A stretch of DNA of 37,893 bases from an uncultured Gammaproteobacteria bacterium. GTDB lineage: Bacteria; Pseudomonadota; Gammaproteobacteria; Arenicellales; JAANXG01. The notes under the pieces were generated by a model. It was not told the DNA's origin, made no database searches, and saw nothing but the letters and a program-made list of their open reading frames with translations. Shown here piece after piece: positions 10,541 through 18,298 of this stretch (position 1 is the stretch's first letter; each line of letters starts with the position of its first letter). A program made the position numbers and the translations under genes. The stretch covers positions 1-37,893 of the forward strand of contig CAMYKW010000024.1 of the NCBI GenBank assembly GCA_947259175.1. Reading direction: 5' to 3'.

Positions 10541-12418
10541 CTAAACTCCCATGCCCATCTGTATGTATCCGGTGGGGCATGCGTCATGACAGATGTGGCA
10601 TCCGGTGCACCGCGTGTAGTCGGTGAACATCACCTGGCCCTTGGGGCGTTTCTTGCTGCGGAAAATCGCCTCCTGGGGACAATACACCCGGCACTGGTCG
10701 CACACGTTGCACTGGCCACAGCTCATGCAACGCGCCGCTTCCGCCAGCGCCTGATCAGAGGACAACGCCGCCCTGATCTCCTTGAAGCCGGTGACCGCCT
10801 CATCGATCTCGATCTCCTTCTCCTCGTTGCGCGGGGCGGGCTCATAATATTCAAGCCGCAGCTCGGTGTGTTTGACCACCGTGCCCATATGGGGTTTTTT
10901 GTACTCCTTGCCTTGCAGATAGGCATCAATCGCGCGCGCGGCTATGCGGCCTTCGCCCACCGCCTTGGAGGAAATTCCCAGACCCAGGACATCGCCGCCG
11001 GCGTAGACACCGGGCTGCGGCGTGGCCTGAATGCTGTTGGCTTCCACCCAGCCCCACTTGTTGGCCAGTTCCGCCATCCCGCCATGCAATTCCGGGCGCT
11101 GCCCGATACCCACCATCACGGTATCGACCGGCAGGGTGTACTCCGAACCCTCGATGGGGACCGGCCTCCGGCGCCCCGACTCGTCGGGTTCACCCAACTC
11201 CATGCGAATACACTCGACGGCGGTTGCGCGTCCTCCCTCGGTAATAAAGCGCACCGGGGCGGACAGATACTCGATGCGTATGCCCTCGGTCTCAGCGGCG
11301 TCAACATCCTCGGAGATCGCCGGCATCTCTTCCCGGGTGCGGCGATAGACGACGACCACCTCGGAGTATTTAGACACCCGCTTGGTCACCCGCGCGGCGT
11401 CCACCATAGTCTTGTCGGAAATCGTATCCTGCACCGCCACTTCCGCCTTAACCGCTTTGTCCAGCTCTTCCTCGTCGACTGCTTGCGCATCCGCGAGGTC
11501 TTCCTCCTCGCGCTTCAAAGTCTGCAGACGCAACGACACCCGCGCGGCGTCGACCGCGCTGTCGCCGCCGCCGATCACAACAACCCGGTTGCCGATCTCC
11601 ACCTCGGCCCCGGTATTGACCCGGTTGAGGAAACTCGCCGCGGTGAATATATTGGCGGACTGCTCGCCGGGCACGCCCATGTCGGCGCCCTTGTGGGCGC
11701 CGCCTGCGATATACACGGCATCGTAGTCTCTGCGCACGTCTTCGAAAGGGATGTCCTCGCCAACCTTGACGTTGCACTTCAGCGTCACACCCAGGTCCAG
11801 GATCTTCTGGATTTCGCCGTCGAGTACATCCTTGGGCAAACGGTAGGGAGGAATACCGTAGCGCAACATGCCCCCCGGGTTTTCGAACGCCTCGAACATC
11901 GTGACCTGATAGCCGCGGCGGACCATTTGATAGGCGGCGGACAGGCCGGAAGGGCCGCTGCCGACGACCGCCACCTTTTGCGTTTTCACTTCATCAGTAA
12001 GCGGCTTCAGCTTGAGATCGTGCTTCAGGCCGTAGTCACCAATGAAGCGCTCCATGTTGTTGATGGCGACCGCGCCATCATCCTTGAACTTACGATTGCA
12101 TTCCGATTCGCACGGGTGAGGGCAGATCCTGCCGTGCACCGCGGGCAGGGGATTCTTGTCGGTCAGGATCTCCCAGGCCTCGGTTAACGCCTGATCGATC
12201 GTTTTTCCGAAAAAATCCGCCTGCTCGATCACCGTAAGATACGCGCGGATGTTCTCACTCGCCGGGCATTTATTGCGGCACGGCGGGAGACGCTGGGTAT
12301 ATACCGGACACTTCCAGCTACGGCCGTTGCGCACTGTGATTTCATCGGCGTCAAAAGGTGCGAGCATGCCCTCGACCTGCTCACGCGTGAAACCATCACG
12401 AAAAATAGTGGTTTCCAT
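10541..12418 (-). CDS. dsrL: DsrL: NAD(P)H oxidoreductase partner of reverse DsrAB
   Basis: The 625-residue iron-sulfur flavoprotein is of the GltD type. N-terminal cluster cysteines are C37, C47, C51, C99, C103 and C107. The FAD motif is GSGPSGLSAA (153-162) and the NAD(P)-binding motif GGGDSAVDAA (283-292). A C-terminal two-cluster ferredoxin domain follows (C570/573/576/580 and C604/607/610/614). In Allochromatium DsrL takes electrons from DsrAB during sulfur oxidation and reduces NAD(P)+. A highly charged insertion of about 55 residues (299-353) splits the NAD(P)-binding domain from the usual VVYRRTREEMPA strand. The gene starts 35 bases after dsrB with AGAGGT upstream. A plain GltD-like paralogue is the alternative, but the ferredoxin tail and dsrAB linkage argue for DsrL. 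Confidence 0.9.
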   Translation of the reverse strand: METTIFRDGFTREQVEGMLAPFDADEITVRNGRSWKCPVYTQRLPPCRNKCPASENIRAYLTVIEQADFFGKTIDQALTEAWEILTDKNPLPAVHGRICPHPCESECNRKFKDDGAVAINNMERFIGDYGLKHDLKLKPLTDEVKTQKVAVVGSGPSGLSAAYQMVRRGYQVTMFEAFENPGGMLRYGIPPYRLPKDVLDGEIQKILDLGVTLKCNVKVGEDIPFEDVRRDYDAVYIAGGAHKGADMGVPGEQSANIFTAASFLNRVNTGAEVEIGNRVVVIGGGDSAVDAARVSLRLQTLKREEEDLADAQAVDEEELDKAVKAEVAVQDTISDKTMVDAARVTKRVSKYSEVVVVYRRTREEMPAISEDVDAAETEGIRIEYLSAPVRFITEGGRATAVECIRMELGEPDESGRRRPVPIEGSEYTLPVDTVMVGIGQRPELHGGMAELANKWGWVEANSIQATPQPGVYAGGDVLGLGISSKAVGEGRIAARAIDAYLQGKEYKKPHMGTVVKHTELRLEYYEPAPRNEEKEIEIDEAVTGFKEIRAALSSDQALAEAARCMSCGQCNVCDQCRVYCPQEAIFRSKKRPKGQVMFTDYTRCTGCHICHDACPTGYIQMGMGV

Positions 12419-12453: not shown

Positions 12454-13527
12454 TTAGATCCTGACGTGCGTGGAACGGTTGTAGGTCCACATCGCGTTGG
12501 GGCCGTCTTCAATGTGATACTTGGTAAACGTAAAACCGGTCTTCTCGAAAAACCGTTGCCAGCCGATGCGCTCGATCCACTCGCCGACGCGCTCCCAGTC
12601 CTGGGCGCCCTCGCGATAGGCGTTGAGGATAGTGCGCACCGCCTCGGAGACCTCTGGCCAGCGCGGCGGATTGTTGGGCAAACCCCACACCGCGAGTTTC
12701 ATCAGTGACGGTCCGCCACGGGTATTGGCGCCCTTGCCGCCCACCCAGATGGACAGCGTGTCGGTATCCGCATCGCGGATCTCCATACTGGGACACTGGC
12801 CGTGACAGGCCCCGCAGTACATGCACTTCTCATCCACCACCTCGACGGTCGGGTTGCCGTTCACCACCGAGGGCCGGATCGCCGCCGCCGGACAGATGGC
12901 CACCACCTTGGGCAACTCACAAATCTGCATATTGTTATGATTAATGCGCGGCGCGTGATGGTGCTGCACGATAATCGCGATGTCCGAATGCCGCCCGCAG
13001 TTGATCTGGCAGCAAGAGGTGGAGATCTTCACGCGATTGGGAAAGTTCTCGTTCTCGAACTCCTCGATGAGATCATCCATCAACGCCTTGACTGCGCCGG
13101 CGGCGTCGGTCGCGGGGAGGTTGCAGTGCAGCCAACCCTGGGTATGCGCGATGTTGGAGATCGACGCGCCGGTGCCGCCGATGGGAAATCCCAGTTCGGT
13201 CTTGATCGCCTCGATCAAAGGTTCAATGTCCTCTTCCTTGGTCAAGCTGAATTCCACGTTGGTACGCATGCTGAAACGCAGGAACCCGTCACAATAACGG
13301 TCGGCGATATCGCAGATCTTGCGGACGGTGGTCGGGCTCATGGTGCGCGGCGAGCCGGCGCGCACGGTATAGAGCTTGTCCCCGTTTTCCGCCGTGTACA
13401 CCAGTACCCCCGGCCGGATGCGCTCATGCTCCACCCATTTACCGTAGTTCTTTACCATTGCAGGATGCAGGCACTTGATGTAATCGGGCGCCCCTTGGTC
13501 CCGCGGTGCTAATTTAGTAGCGCTCAT
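12454..13527 (-). CDS. dsrB: dissimilatory sulfite reductase beta subunit (oxidative type)
   Basis: The 357-residue protein shows the sirohaem-[4Fe-4S] ligand region (GWLHC135; SCCQINCGRH with C172/C173 and C177) and an inserted ferredoxin cluster (C235-x2-C238-x2-C241-x3-C245, KCMYCGACHGQC). The typical end is TYNRSTHVRI. With DsrA it forms an alpha2beta2 cytoplasmic enzyme that here should run in reverse, converting DsrC-bound sulfane sulfur to sulfite. GAGGGG lies 9 bases before the ATG. It follows dsrA by 60 bases and precedes dsrL by 35, so all three are one operon. Confidence 0.96.
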   Translation of the reverse strand: MSATKLAPRDQGAPDYIKCLHPAMVKNYGKWVEHERIRPGVLVYTAENGDKLYTVRAGSPRTMSPTTVRKICDIADRYCDGFLRFSMRTNVEFSLTKEEDIEPLIEAIKTELGFPIGGTGASISNIAHTQGWLHCNLPATDAAGAVKALMDDLIEEFENENFPNRVKISTSCCQINCGRHSDIAIIVQHHHAPRINHNNMQICELPKVVAICPAAAIRPSVVNGNPTVEVVDEKCMYCGACHGQCPSMEIRDADTDTLSIWVGGKGANTRGGPSLMKLAVWGLPNNPPRWPEVSEAVRTILNAYREGAQDWERVGEWIERIGWQRFFEKTGFTFTKYHIEDGPNAMWTYNRSTHVRI

Positions 13528-13587: not shown

Positions 13588-14880
13588 TCACCCGGCCGCT
13601 TCGCTGGATTCCGGCTCCCGGTTCCAGACCTTGGGCTGCTGTTCGCTTTCGCCCTCGAAACGGCCCGGCGCCAGCTCCTCGAAGTTGATGTACGGGCTGG
13701 TGCGCGTGGACTGCACCATCCGCGGATCCGGCTCCAGACCACAACCCTCCAGGAAGGTGCCGAGCCCGACGCGGGCGATAAACTCGCCGATGCGTTCATG
13801 GTCCATGCCGTTGTCATTCCAGAATTCCCACACACGGTCGATCAAATCGGTGAGATTCTCGAAGTCCTCTTCGGTCTCCAGCTTTAAAAACGGCACGATA
13901 ACCGAACTCATGGTATCGCCGATTTTCAAGGTGCGTTTGGCGCCCAGGCAAATCGTCACTCCCCGGTCCTTGCCGGGCAACAGCGCCTTGTGCATTACAT
14001 TGATGCAGTGCATGCAGCGCACACAGTTCTCATCATCGACCACCAGTTCCTTACCCTTAAGAGACAGGCAACGCGTTGGACAGCGGGTAATAACGTTATC
14101 GATCACATGTTCAACGCCTTTTTCATCGATATACTCGGCGACCTTTTGCTGGTCGATCTGCATCGGCCCGCGCCAGGTGCCGATGATCGGCATGTCGGAA
14201 CCGATCATGGCGTTGGCGCAGTCATTGGCGCACCCGGAGATCTTGATCTTGAACTTGTACATGAACTCCGGCCGGTGGAGAAAATCTATGTAGTGGTTGG
14301 TGAGACCGCGGGTGGTCTTCATGGTGTCGAAGCAAGCCATTTCACAGCGCGCCTGACCCACGCAGCACTGCAGACTGCGCAGAGCCGCCCCGGACCCCCC
14401 CAGGTCCCAACCGTTGGCCATCAGCTCCTCTGCCGCCTCGAACGTGGACTCGTTGTCGAATCCCAGGGCCAAAGCGTCACCGGTCAAGCCATGGAGCTGA
14501 AGGATGCCCGCGCCGTGGCGCTCACAGATATCGGCCAGATTACGCAGCCGTTCGGTCGAATACACGAACCCGGGAGGCGGAATGACGCGAATGGTGTGGA
14601 ATTCGGCGAGGTCCGGGTATTTGTCCGCTTTGTCCGACAGCCGCGCAATGACCCCGCCGCCGTAACCGGAAACGTTCAACACGGTGCCCGTCCAGTAGTT
14701 CCATCGATTCTCGTAGGACTCCTCGAGTTGATTCAACAACTGGGCGACCTGGGGTTTGGTTTCTGACCACTGTTTCAGGTCGGAGACAAAACTGGGCCAC
14801 GGTCCATCCTCCAACTCATCCAGCAACGGAGTATTCAACCCCGGATTATTCGTTCCTTTCTCGTCTTGTTTGTTCGCCAT
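13588..14880 (-). CDS. dsrA: dissimilatory sulfite reductase alpha subunit (oxidative type)
   Basis: The 430-residue protein has the sirohaem-cluster cysteines C173-x5-C179 (CVGQARC) and C217-x3-C221 (GCANDC), a ferredoxin domain (C267, C271, C286, C289, C292) and the DsrA fold throughout. The start at 14880 is fixed by a perfect AGGAGG seven bases upstream; an in-frame extension to 14964 looks non-conserved. It oxidises sulfur at the sirohaem together with DsrB. The oxidative direction is inferred from linkage to dsrL and from the gammaproteobacterial background, not from diagnostic residues. The DsrA C-terminus carries an extra acidic tail after residue 405. Confidence 0.96.
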   Translation of the reverse strand: MANKQDEKGTNNPGLNTPLLDELEDGPWPSFVSDLKQWSETKPQVAQLLNQLEESYENRWNYWTGTVLNVSGYGGGVIARLSDKADKYPDLAEFHTIRVIPPPGFVYSTERLRNLADICERHGAGILQLHGLTGDALALGFDNESTFEAAEELMANGWDLGGSGAALRSLQCCVGQARCEMACFDTMKTTRGLTNHYIDFLHRPEFMYKFKIKISGCANDCANAMIGSDMPIIGTWRGPMQIDQQKVAEYIDEKGVEHVIDNVITRCPTRCLSLKGKELVVDDENCVRCMHCINVMHKALLPGKDRGVTICLGAKRTLKIGDTMSSVIVPFLKLETEEDFENLTDLIDRVWEFWNDNGMDHERIGEFIARVGLGTFLEGCGLEPDPRMVQSTRTSPYINFEELAPGRFEGESEQQPKVWNREPESSEAAG

Positions 14881-15033: not shown

Positions 15034-15387
15034 CTAGCCGTCGTGCTCGGACGGCAAGGGTTTGGGTAATCCGGCCAATTTACACAACTCGGAAACGGGG
15101 TCGCGGGGAAACAACATGTAAAGAAATTTTTCGTATTGCTTGTGCTCGTGAAACCGGTCTCCAATCATCTTCCCAAGCCGTTGCACCAGCACGTGCATGG
15201 TCGGATGAACTTCGTGTTCCTCGTAGTAATCACGAAAATAGTCGATCAGCCCCACGTGTTCATCCTTCAACTCTATGCCGTCACGGTTGGCGATGGCCTC
15301 CGAGACCTCCTCTGACCAATCCGCTCGATCAACGAGAAAGCCCTCTTCGTCGACCTCGATCAGCTTGCCGCCTACTTCAATCGCCAT
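15034..15387 (-). CDS. DsrC/TusE-family protein lacking the C-terminal CysA
   Basis: The 117-residue protein is a clear DsrC homologue: GGKLIEVDEEGFLVD, WSEEVSEAIA, DYYEEHEVHP, and the C-terminal arm LCKLAGLPKPLPSEHDG. DsrC has two redox cysteines in that arm: CysA, next to last, and CysB ten residues before. TusE keeps only CysA. Here only CysB is present (C102) and the end is PSEHDG. Neither other reading frame restores a cysteine, so this is not a simple frameshift. Without CysA it should not carry sulfur as a DsrAB trisulfide substrate. It may be a regulatory DsrC-like (RspA-type) protein. GGGGGAG precedes tandem ATGs (15390, 15387); the second has better spacing. It is the first gene before dsrA, 153 bases upstream. 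Confidence 0.88.
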   Translation of the reverse strand: MAIEVGGKLIEVDEEGFLVDRADWSEEVSEAIANRDGIELKDEHVGLIDYFRDYYEEHEVHPTMHVLVQRLGKMIGDRFHEHKQYEKFLYMLFPRDPVSELCKLAGLPKPLPSEHDG

Positions 15388-15655: not shown

Positions 15656-15763
15656 GCACGCCGACTATTGACGTATATCAATTTTGCGGCGGTGAATTGG
15701 CAAAGCGCGGCTCGCGACAGGTACCCCGGCGTGTCATTAAGATCGTTTTTGCCCCCATTAACT

Positions 15764-17383: not shown

Positions 17384-17800
17384 CTAACCTTTTTCCATTG
17401 GAAAATTTTCTTTCTCCCAGGCAAGTAATCCCCCCGCCAGGGTATAGACGCTCTCGAAACCTTTTTTCGTAAGCAACCGGGCCGCGGTGGCAGAGCGGTT
17501 TCCGGCACGGCAGGTGAGCACTACGGTCTTGGTCTTGTTCTTTTCCAGCTTACCGAGATCCCCGGACAGCTTCTTCAATGGGACGTTGATCGAGTTCGGT
17601 ATATGGGATTTCTTATACTCATGGGGCTCGCTGACGTCGACGATGACGGCGTCATCGCGAAGCAATGCGGGCAACTCCAAAGCGCTGACGGCGCGAATCC
17701 CGGAGGCGCGCTGGCGGATAGGCTCCATCAATAACATCACGATTATTGCCGCGGCCATGGCAAATAGGTACCAGTTATCAAGCACGAACTGAGTGGTCAT
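17384..17800 (-). CDS. membrane-anchored rhodanese-like sulfurtransferase (YibN-type)
   Basis: The 138-residue protein has an N-terminal membrane helix (about residues 10-25) and one rhodanese domain with the active-site loop CRAGNRSA, whose cysteine would carry a persulfide, and the family's VDVSEPHEYKKSHIPNSINVP segment. In E. coli the homologue YibN sits in front of grxC-secB-gpsA. Here grxC is missing and secB follows directly (22 bases). An ArsR regulator with a persulfide-sensor-like cysteine pair lies immediately upstream, and the dsr genes are 2 kb away. A role in handling sulfane sulfur is plausible but not shown. Confidence 0.9.
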   Translation of the reverse strand: MTTQFVLDNWYLFAMAAAIIVMLLMEPIRQRASGIRAVSALELPALLRDDAVIVDVSEPHEYKKSHIPNSINVPLKKLSGDLGKLEKNKTKTVVLTCRAGNRSATAARLLTKKGFESVYTLAGGLLAWEKENFPMEKG

Positions 17801-17935
17801 GGAGCAATCTTCAGACTATGAGTGCGGGCAATTGTGGAAACGGCGGGGAGATTACCGGTTATGGACACGGTCAGCAACAGTGACCGGTCCGAGGGGAGCG
17901 GCGGCATCGGGCCACCCCCACGCCGCATCGACCGG

Positions 17936-18298
17936 TCAGAGGTCCGGGGCGGCGCAGAATGCCAGGCGCATGGATTCCATCAGACGCAGAATGCGTTGGT
18001 CTCCGATGCGGTAATAGACCTTGTTGGCGTCTTTACGCGACTCCAGGATTCCCTTGTCGCGCAGGATCGACAGATGTTGCGAGATATTACTCTGCGACGT
18101 ACCGACCATATCCACGAGATCCTGCACGCTGGTTTCTTTGGCGCCACCCAGAATACACAGAATTTTGAGGCGTAGCGGATGCGCCATCGCTTTGAGCGAC
18201 CGCGAGGCGTGATGGATGTCCGCCTCACTGGCGAGTAGCATCTCCGCGGTGCTGTTGCCCGAGGGGGTGTTATCGGCACTGGATTTCGAGCTGCTCAT
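17936..18298 (-). CDS. ArsR-family regulator, candidate persulfide sensor (SqrR/BigR/sHdrR-like)
   Basis: The 120-residue winged-helix repressor has a disordered Ser-rich N-terminus (1-20), AHPLRLKILCILGG (C48 in the second helix), the DNA-reading helix VGTSQSNISQHLSILRDKGI, the wing SRKDANKVYYRI, and a final helix ending RLAFCAAPDL (C115). The only two cysteines are 67 residues apart. In SqrR, BigR and sHdrR the sensing pair is about 66 apart at matching places and forms a polysulfide bridge that releases DNA. Metal-binding ArsR motifs (ELCVCDL) are absent. It is divergent from envC and upstream of the rhodanese gene. Sulfur sensing is an inference from cysteine placement and context. Confidence 0.88.
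   Translation of the reverse strand: MSSSKSSADNTPSGNSTAEMLLASEADIHHASRSLKAMAHPLRLKILCILGGAKETSVQDLVDMVGTSQSNISQHLSILRDKGILESRKDANKVYYRIGDQRILRLMESMRLAFCAAPDL

Follow-up and report, generated by a model that had tools for sequence, protein, structure and literature searches.

The window analysed here, a 37,893-nucleotide stretch of contig CAMYKW010000024.1 from an uncultured gammaproteobacterium (assembly GCA_947259175.1), encodes a second set of dsr genes headed by a DsrC paralog, DsrC*, that has lost CysA, the next-to-last cysteine of the DsrC arm, and kept CysB. Tentatively, and with slightly less than even confidence, we read DsrC* as a dedicated non-carrier partner that would dock on, and cap or gate, a second, NADP(H)-linked DsrAB working outside the DsrEFH/DsrMK sulfur cycle.

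Profile matches and orthologs place the dsrC* gene at positions 15034..15387 of the minus strand (117 aa). An alternative ATG lies one codon upstream (15390-15034, minus; 118 aa, MMAIEV...); the second ATG, at 15387, is the start common to relatives, and the remaining cysteine is C102 in the 117-aa form or C103 in the 118-aa form. The C-terminal arm, ELCKLAGLPKPLPSEHDG (15037..15090, minus), keeps CysB, has Ser at the CysA column and carries a four-residue extension: where the genome's two-cysteine canonical DsrC, which ends QACKYAGLPKPTGCV, has Cys-Val, DsrC* has Ser plus four residues. The absence of any cysteine after C102/C103 sets DsrC* apart from DsrC in the strict sense, which has CysA at the next-to-last position; the CysB of strict-sense DsrC is present, as C102 of the 117-aa form, in 9/9 dsrABL-linked DsrC*. 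In the alignment, the CysA column holds Ser in the seven window-type proteins and Asp in two distant cassette-linked ones. The original prediction, that this DsrC homologue lacks CysA and retains CysB, was thus borne out. Profile searches assigned the protein to the DsrC superfamily (PF04358, 108.5 bits, cut-off 24.9; TIGR03342, 104.1 bits, cut-off 53.5). AlphaFold predicts a DsrC fold for it (mean pLDDT 86.2) with a disordered arm tip (residues 114-117 below 50), and the top eight Foldseek matches to the model were all DsrC-family chains, the best being Allochromatium vinosum DsrC (1yx3, TMq 0.82). Relative to canonical DsrC, DsrC* also has a four-residue insertion in the FHEHKQY region.

The cluster is transcribed in the order dsrC*-dsrA2-dsrB2-dsrL2 and lies between gpsA and trmL. 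Profiles and alignments identified dsrA2 (13588..14880, minus; 430 aa) and dsrB2 (12454..13527, minus; 357 aa, cluster cysteines kept) as the alpha and beta subunits of a second DsrAB, with curated-model scores of 477.8 bits for DsrA2 (cut-off 392.85) and 442.9 bits for DsrB2 (341.5). DsrA2 is 50% identical to the genome's own canonical DsrA. Aligned to solved enzymes, DsrA2 and DsrB2 keep the sirohaem/Fe-S cluster and KxKxK residues, and the predicted catalytic residues of DsrAB2 are intact. dsrL2 (10541..12418, minus; 625 aa) encodes an iron-sulfur flavoprotein assigned to DsrL-2 by a YRR motif at residue 358, which is absent from the DsrL of the canonical operon. We read this motif as NADP(H) specificity; DsrL-2 of Desulfurella amilsii is described as strictly NADP(H)-dependent (PMC7596348).

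The complete canonical operon for sulfur oxidation, dsrABEFHCMKLJOPN-type, is on another contig (C39) and includes a two-cysteine DsrC (C39:28867-29187). The original prediction had placed dsrC* as the first dsr gene, which holds for the cluster in the window, but it missed that this is the second dsr cluster of the genome, with a diverged dsrAB and a DsrL-2, and that DsrC* derives from an older family of CysA-less paralogs found mostly apart from dsr genes; the two-cysteine DsrC that it suggested looking for elsewhere does exist. The genome has five PF04358 matches: the canonical DsrC, an RspA-type protein (also on C39), the window gene and two more distant proteins. One of these two, on contig C63 (L009:8393-8809), has a cysteine only at CysB (GCKISGLEPPPGSIDTSFGSVQ) and belongs to a different clade from DsrC*.

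All orthologs of DsrC* (7/7) end identically, with the frame open in each. Across the 18 arm codons there were no non-synonymous differences in the 21 pairs formed by these seven genomes, while 17 of the 18 codons vary silently; whole-gene dN/dS was 0.023-0.181 (18/21 pairs computable). The arm is evidently frozen under purifying selection. Because an identical arm recurs in separately assembled genomes with silent codon variation, the absence of CysA is not a sequencing error, and a frameshift, an assembly error or a decaying gene is refuted and can be dismissed with near certainty. The CysA-less form is likewise conserved beside dsrA in relatives, as the original prediction had proposed to check.

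Seven of the 13 family genomes have DsrA2, once as a contig-end fragment, and these seven also carry DsrC*; a two-cysteine DsrC is present in 13/13. DsrC* scored 108-113 bits in the family search, and low-scoring matches of 54-74 bits, some with tails left unread, came from six genomes without DsrA2. A close DsrA2 was found in 6 of 109 genomes of the order, the G005 fragment falling below that cut, and a search of the phylum found DsrC* in 1 of 398 genomes, its own, counted without regard to DsrA. In another search, tails were read for 6 of 36 such low-scoring matches.

Beyond gpsA and secB, genes for a rhodanese-domain protein and an ArsR-family regulator (17384-18298, minus) are conserved with the cluster in the genus; for the regulator, BigR was the second-best model and fell under its cut-off. 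A candidate FNR/Anr-like palindrome, TTGATATACGTCAA (15668..15681, minus), assigned by the FNR consensus, lies 294 bp upstream of dsrC*. The site is weak alone, with at least one such site in 11 of 100 shuffles of the window, and its support is its conservation in 5/5 dsrC*-carrying genomes of the genus. Elsewhere, G011 has a site with one mismatch and L042 and L057 have sites with two; none was found upstream of dsrC* in G007 when up to two mismatches were allowed. A scan for promoters and terminators was uninformative, with two promoter-like sequences against 1.9 expected and two terminator-like ones against 4.9. A plasmid origin of dsrC* was rejected, plasmids yielding only TusE-like matches below 60%, as was a phage origin (6 phage records, all below 60%). 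A CysB-only DsrC is known among phage proteins (1 of 141 phage DsrC; PMC8190135).

Replacement of the assimilatory sulfite reductase by DsrAB2 was also rejected. The four PF01077 matches in G000 are two DsrA and two DsrB; among the 13 family genomes, a further CysI-like protein is confined to G007, which has DsrAB2, and G008, which has no DsrAB at all, and neither DsrAB2 nor a CysI-like match was found in G002, G006, G009, G010 and G012. On this pattern, DsrAB2 is not a clean substitute.

A pattern-based scan of named genomes recovered 29 dsrABL-2 loci, limited to those sharing one of two peptide patterns so that the DsrA2 list is incomplete; G303 came from another search. The 29 loci belong to Gammaproteobacteria, Magnetococcales (including Ca. 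Magnetaquicoccus inordinatus), Nitrospinota, Nitrospirota and Gaiellales SURF_19, and the order is dsrA-dsrB-dsrL wherever all three genes are visible. In earlier reports, rdsrABL-2 sets occur outside Gammaproteobacteria, and UR-1 has two dsrABL copies and one dsrC (PMC7596348, PMC10591310, PMC6783814). In our DsrAB tree, which has a single reductive reference, the canonical DsrAB of the genomes that carry DsrAB2 form a branch of their own (100/100), apart from DsrAB2. A set of 28 rows (93/89, not starred) unites DsrAB2 with SURF_19 'ox', Nitrospinota and Magnetococcales second copies. The same papers call these groups oxidative type or unsettled (PMC7596348, PMC6783814, PMC10591310). The tree was built without duplicate assemblies (L034, L035, L036, L038 and L056), DsrA shorter than 380 aa and G303; L018 and L039 are represented by DsrA only, and G011 (93/84) is not firmly placed. 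Some distant DsrA2 and DsrB2 rows do not match the loose motif patterns used (for example 6/35 for KxKxK with the cluster cysteines and 8/32 for the DsrB CC motif); the window proteins have all of these motifs. A different second dsrAB was seen at L185 (G417:C1:266087-267256), in a one-contig gammaproteobacterial genome whose CysA-less DsrC is located elsewhere; the L185 DsrA shares 68% identity with canonical DsrA1 and 53% with DsrA2.

Nine cassettes carry DsrC*, those of the seven window-type genomes and of the distant Gammaproteobacteria L042 and L057 (tail LPKPLPDGQ), and nine carry a two-cysteine DsrC (L041, G303 (L203), L050, L051, L052, L054, L058, L060 and L062). In L037 the DsrC is cut by the contig end, and no DsrC was found within the fetched flanks of the Magnetococcales loci (8/8) or of some other loci. 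Both dsrM and dsrK lie near 8 of the 9 cassettes with a two-cysteine DsrC (the exception is L060), compared with 0 of the 9 with DsrC* within the flanks seen; a one-sided Fisher test by hand gave ~2e-4, with relatedness ignored and some flanks short. For this comparison L037 was set aside, and the flanks of L033 and L036 were short (8 kb), L033 ending inside dsrA. The DsrC and dsrMK of G303 lie ~12 kb from dsrL, and L053 has dsrMK with no DsrC found. Neither DsrEFH nor DsrMK genes were found alongside the DsrC* cassettes. The disulfide or trisulfide of DsrC is what DsrMK acts on (PMC10504309), so the loss of CysA and the absence of dsrMK fit together. L203 (G303:C246) and L041, which combine dsrABL-2 with a two-cysteine DsrC, dsrM, dsrK and a dsrJ-like gene, resemble a nearly complete second dsr pathway.

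The nine dsrC* loci occupy at least three genome positions: between gpsA and trmL (5 genomes), at a PhsA-like operon (G011) and next to pntAB-mdh (L042 and L057). In G011, unlike the other window-type loci, dsrC* is divergent from dsrA2, and genes encoding a molybdenum oxidoreductase and Fe-S, NrfD-like and rhodanese-like proteins follow downstream of dsrC* on the same strand (L032:1710-6163, minus). The best model for the oxidoreductase was PhsA, below cut-off; these neighbours again tie dsrC* to sulfur oxyanion or sulfane sulfur chemistry. In L042 (2269-6519) and L057 (4764-8792), pntA-pntB-mdh, encoding NAD(P) transhydrogenase and malate dehydrogenase, lies directly upstream of dsrC*-dsrABL2, and in L042 it is followed by sucC. 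The DsrC* proteins of these two loci also have a three-residue insertion giving two extra cysteines (NCAHC or NCAQC) before ELCKL, possibly a metal or disulfide site.

A DsrC tree of 90 rows and 113 columns (midpoint root, many forks unresolved; limited to rows of at least 98 aa, with roughly one in three of the canonical rows L064-L092 retained) placed 24 CysA-less rows in a clade (99/100) separate from canonical DsrC and from RspA-type proteins. The 14 RspA-type rows group in a separate branch (100/96), with DsrC* outside it. The CysA-less clade consists of 15 unlinked gammaproteobacterial proteins and the 9 dsrABL-linked rows as one branch (100/95). The genes of the unlinked members have no dsr gene adjacent and no neighbourhood common across families. 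A profile of the clade matched in 17 of 369 genomes of the class, all 17 with DsrA, which itself occurs in 117 of the 369 (hypergeometric 1.4e-9, relatedness ignored). In the other carriers (16/16), a further DsrC-family match extends as far as the CysA column. Since the clade is confined to DsrA genomes and is mostly unlinked, DsrC* is, judged by this distribution, an accessory paralog that belongs to rDsr sulfur oxidisers and came to be joined to the dsrABL-2 set. The branching of linked DsrC* agrees with the DsrAB2 tree, L042 and L057 being outermost in both, followed by G011, and on phylogenetic grounds the DsrC* line is shown to have been inherited together with DsrABL-2 in Gammaproteobacteria. 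A later swap to a two-cysteine DsrC of the L037/L041/G303 kind is the simplest reading, with the place of G011 (93/84) leaving some room. Two DsrC relatives from Magnetococcales (L148 and L149) have Leu at CysB and tails GLPMPCGCN or GLPMPCRCD.

We compared 46 positions conserved in 38 canonical rows, leaving aside five odd canonical rows (L104, L152, L164, L166 and L167). These positions were kept at 59% in linked DsrC*, 54% in unlinked members and 57% in RspA-type proteins, so linked DsrC* is overall no more canonical than the other groups. Individual positions differ: the arm residue K109 is kept in 9/9 linked, 5/15 unlinked and 0/14 RspA-type proteins, and C102 in 9/9, 11/15 and 0/14, respectively. 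Ser stands at CysB in 4 of the 15 unlinked members of the alignment, and also in L183, a sixteenth member identified afterwards, giving 5/16. W45 is invariant in the canonical, unlinked CysA-less and RspA-type rows and is M, V, I or E in 9/9 linked proteins.

In A. vinosum DsrC, persulfuration occurs only at the penultimate Cys111 and binding to DsrEFH is strongly reduced without it, whereas Cys100, the CysB equivalent, binds no sulfur and is not needed for DsrEFH (PMC3397948). Given this requirement for Cys111, DsrC* is expected to be incapable of both loading sulfur from DsrEFH and forming a trisulfide; the prediction that it cannot be a normal carrier follows from that work and is backed by the dsrMK contrast (0/9 versus 8/9 cassettes). 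Deprived of persulfide uptake, trisulfide formation and cycling by DsrMK, DsrC* may be read as a non-carrier cap or gate of DsrAB2. Retention of the AGLPKP part of the arm points to docking in the cleft of DsrAB. In this scheme the GLPKP arm, which enters the DsrA/DsrB cleft in canonical complexes, would dock DsrC* on DsrAB2 and put Ser-Glu-His-Asp-Gly, not a thiol, near the sirohaem. DsrC* would be unable to accept the DsrEFH persulfide, to form the trisulfide or to be cycled by DsrMK. Capping or gating would reserve canonical DsrC-bound sulfur for DsrAB1 and/or allow DsrAB2, supplied with NADP(H) via DsrL-2, to use sulfite or sulfide in free form, and the lone CysB might serve as a redox-sensitive handle. 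The YRR motif of DsrL2 and the pntA-pntB-mdh genes of L042/L057 support the NADP(H) side. Counted in favour of the cap or gate are also the frozen arm, the joint occurrence of DsrC* and DsrA2 in the family, the single branch of linked DsrC* and its agreement with the DsrAB tree, the dsrMK contrast, the retention of K109 and C102, the DsrC fold, the catalytic residues of DsrAB2 and the A. vinosum work. Against it, one branch of the same gammaproteobacterial DsrAB2 (L041 and G303, with the truncated DsrC of L037) has canonical DsrC in place of DsrC*, which is thus not required by this enzyme in itself. Linked DsrC* also has unlinked proteins as its closest relatives, and its original role therefore need not involve DsrAB2. 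We also count against it the W45 change, the unimproved match to canonical positions overall, the divergent dsrC* of G011 and the disordered arm tip. A broader proposal, that DsrC* uncouples DsrAB from the sulfur-carrier cycle, would make DsrAB2-DsrL2 carrier-independent and NADP(H)-linked, acting on free sulfite or sulfide in either direction, with loss of CysA and dsrMK marking a second Dsr mode in sulfur oxidisers; we consider it rather unlikely.

An alternative is a regulator of gene expression, as proposed for RspA: DsrC* would bind DNA or a transcription factor and sense thiol or sulfur state through CysB, its linkage to dsrABL-2 then being autoregulation. The CysA-less relatives mostly lie away from dsr genes in no conserved neighbourhood and yet only in DsrA genomes (17/17), and dsrC* is first or divergent in its cluster, as is common for regulators; the Ser in 5/16 unlinked members makes the thiol dispensable there. 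A 56-residue part of the model weakly resembles a DNA-bound LexA fold in Foldseek, at a non-significant E of ~0.9. However, the RspA-type proteins are a separate clade with another tail (KGGY), no helix-turn-helix family was among the profile matches of DsrC*, and a DNA-binding role leaves unexplained why CysB and GLPKP are kept in 9/9 linked proteins. We judge such a regulator unlikely, though with an appreciable chance.

The retention of C102 in all linked proteins despite its replacement in unlinked ones would suit a sulfur or redox carrier using CysB alone, through an intermolecular disulfide or persulfide of C102 with DsrAB2, DsrL2 or another DsrC, as would the two further cysteines of L042/L057 (CAHC/CAQC). 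Three points speak against it: the A. vinosum CysB equivalent is reported to bind no sulfur and to be dispensable for DsrEFH (PMC3397948), CysB is modelled at the end of helix 97-104, some ten residues from where a sirohaem-reactive thiol is expected, and the cassettes have no DsrEFH or DsrMK genes. This makes a CysB-only carrier very doubtful. DsrC* could instead be a passenger, travelling with a DsrAB2 that uses the canonical DsrC of the other operon and having an unrelated or marginal role itself. Magnetococcales cassettes, without DsrC in their flanks (8/8), must draw it from elsewhere, and canonical DsrC is available in 13/13 family genomes. Co-inheritance through nine loci at three or more genome positions, an arm under strong purifying selection and the dsrMK loss common to the cassettes tell against this, and we hold a passenger to be quite improbable.

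Two-cysteine DsrC is regarded as the obligatory partner of DsrAB. A conserved CysA-less DsrC with a full DsrABL beside a normal system therefore offers a natural test of DsrC roles beyond sulfur carriage. Since the same genomes hold both kinds of DsrC, calling a dsrC or dsrAB gene is not in itself proof of a working sulfur-carrier cycle. The link between CysA and dsrMK in the cassettes is a prediction checkable in more genomes. Our literature search returned no account of a CysA-less DsrC beside dsrAB; by our rating, and for the literature as searched, DsrC* is a previously undescribed DsrC-superfamily variant tied to a second DsrABL-2 set.

Venceslau et al. (2014) reportedly define DsrC, TusE and RspA, the last being a DsrC-like protein for which the conserved Cys is not needed and which is a proposed regulator. 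DsrC* resembles RspA in being a DsrC relative incapable of the CysA/CysB cycle in dsr genomes, but the proteins with a KGGY tail and no CysB, which we take to be RspA, form another clade. TusE is a tRNA thiolation relay with CysA only. It shares the superfamily and a single arm cysteine with DsrC*, TusE keeping the last and DsrC* the other; with this reversed cysteine pattern and a TusE-model score of 83.9 bits (cut-off 191), DsrC* is not a TusE. DsrD is an allosteric activator of reductive DsrAB, and DsrC* would be like it by hypothesis only, as a small non-carrier protein tuning DsrAB; DsrC* differs in having the DsrC fold and in standing alongside a putatively oxidative-clade DsrAB. With A. 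vinosum DsrC, the two-cysteine carrier of DsrAB (1yx3), DsrC* shares the Pfam/TIGR family, fold, CysB, AGLPKP and a dsrAB neighbour, and differs in Ser plus EHDG for Cys-Val, the four-residue insertion, the changed W45 and a cassette without dsrEFH/dsrMK. The known rdsrABL-2 sets (oxidative DsrAB with DsrL-2A/2B; the Magnetococcales UR-1 second copy, Nitrospinota, Nitrospirota, SURF_19 and CG2_30_53_67) have the DsrAB/DsrL lineage and dsrA-dsrB-dsrL order of the window; what distinguishes the window type is its occurrence in Gammaproteobacteria that keep the canonical operon too, together with a CysA-less DsrC.
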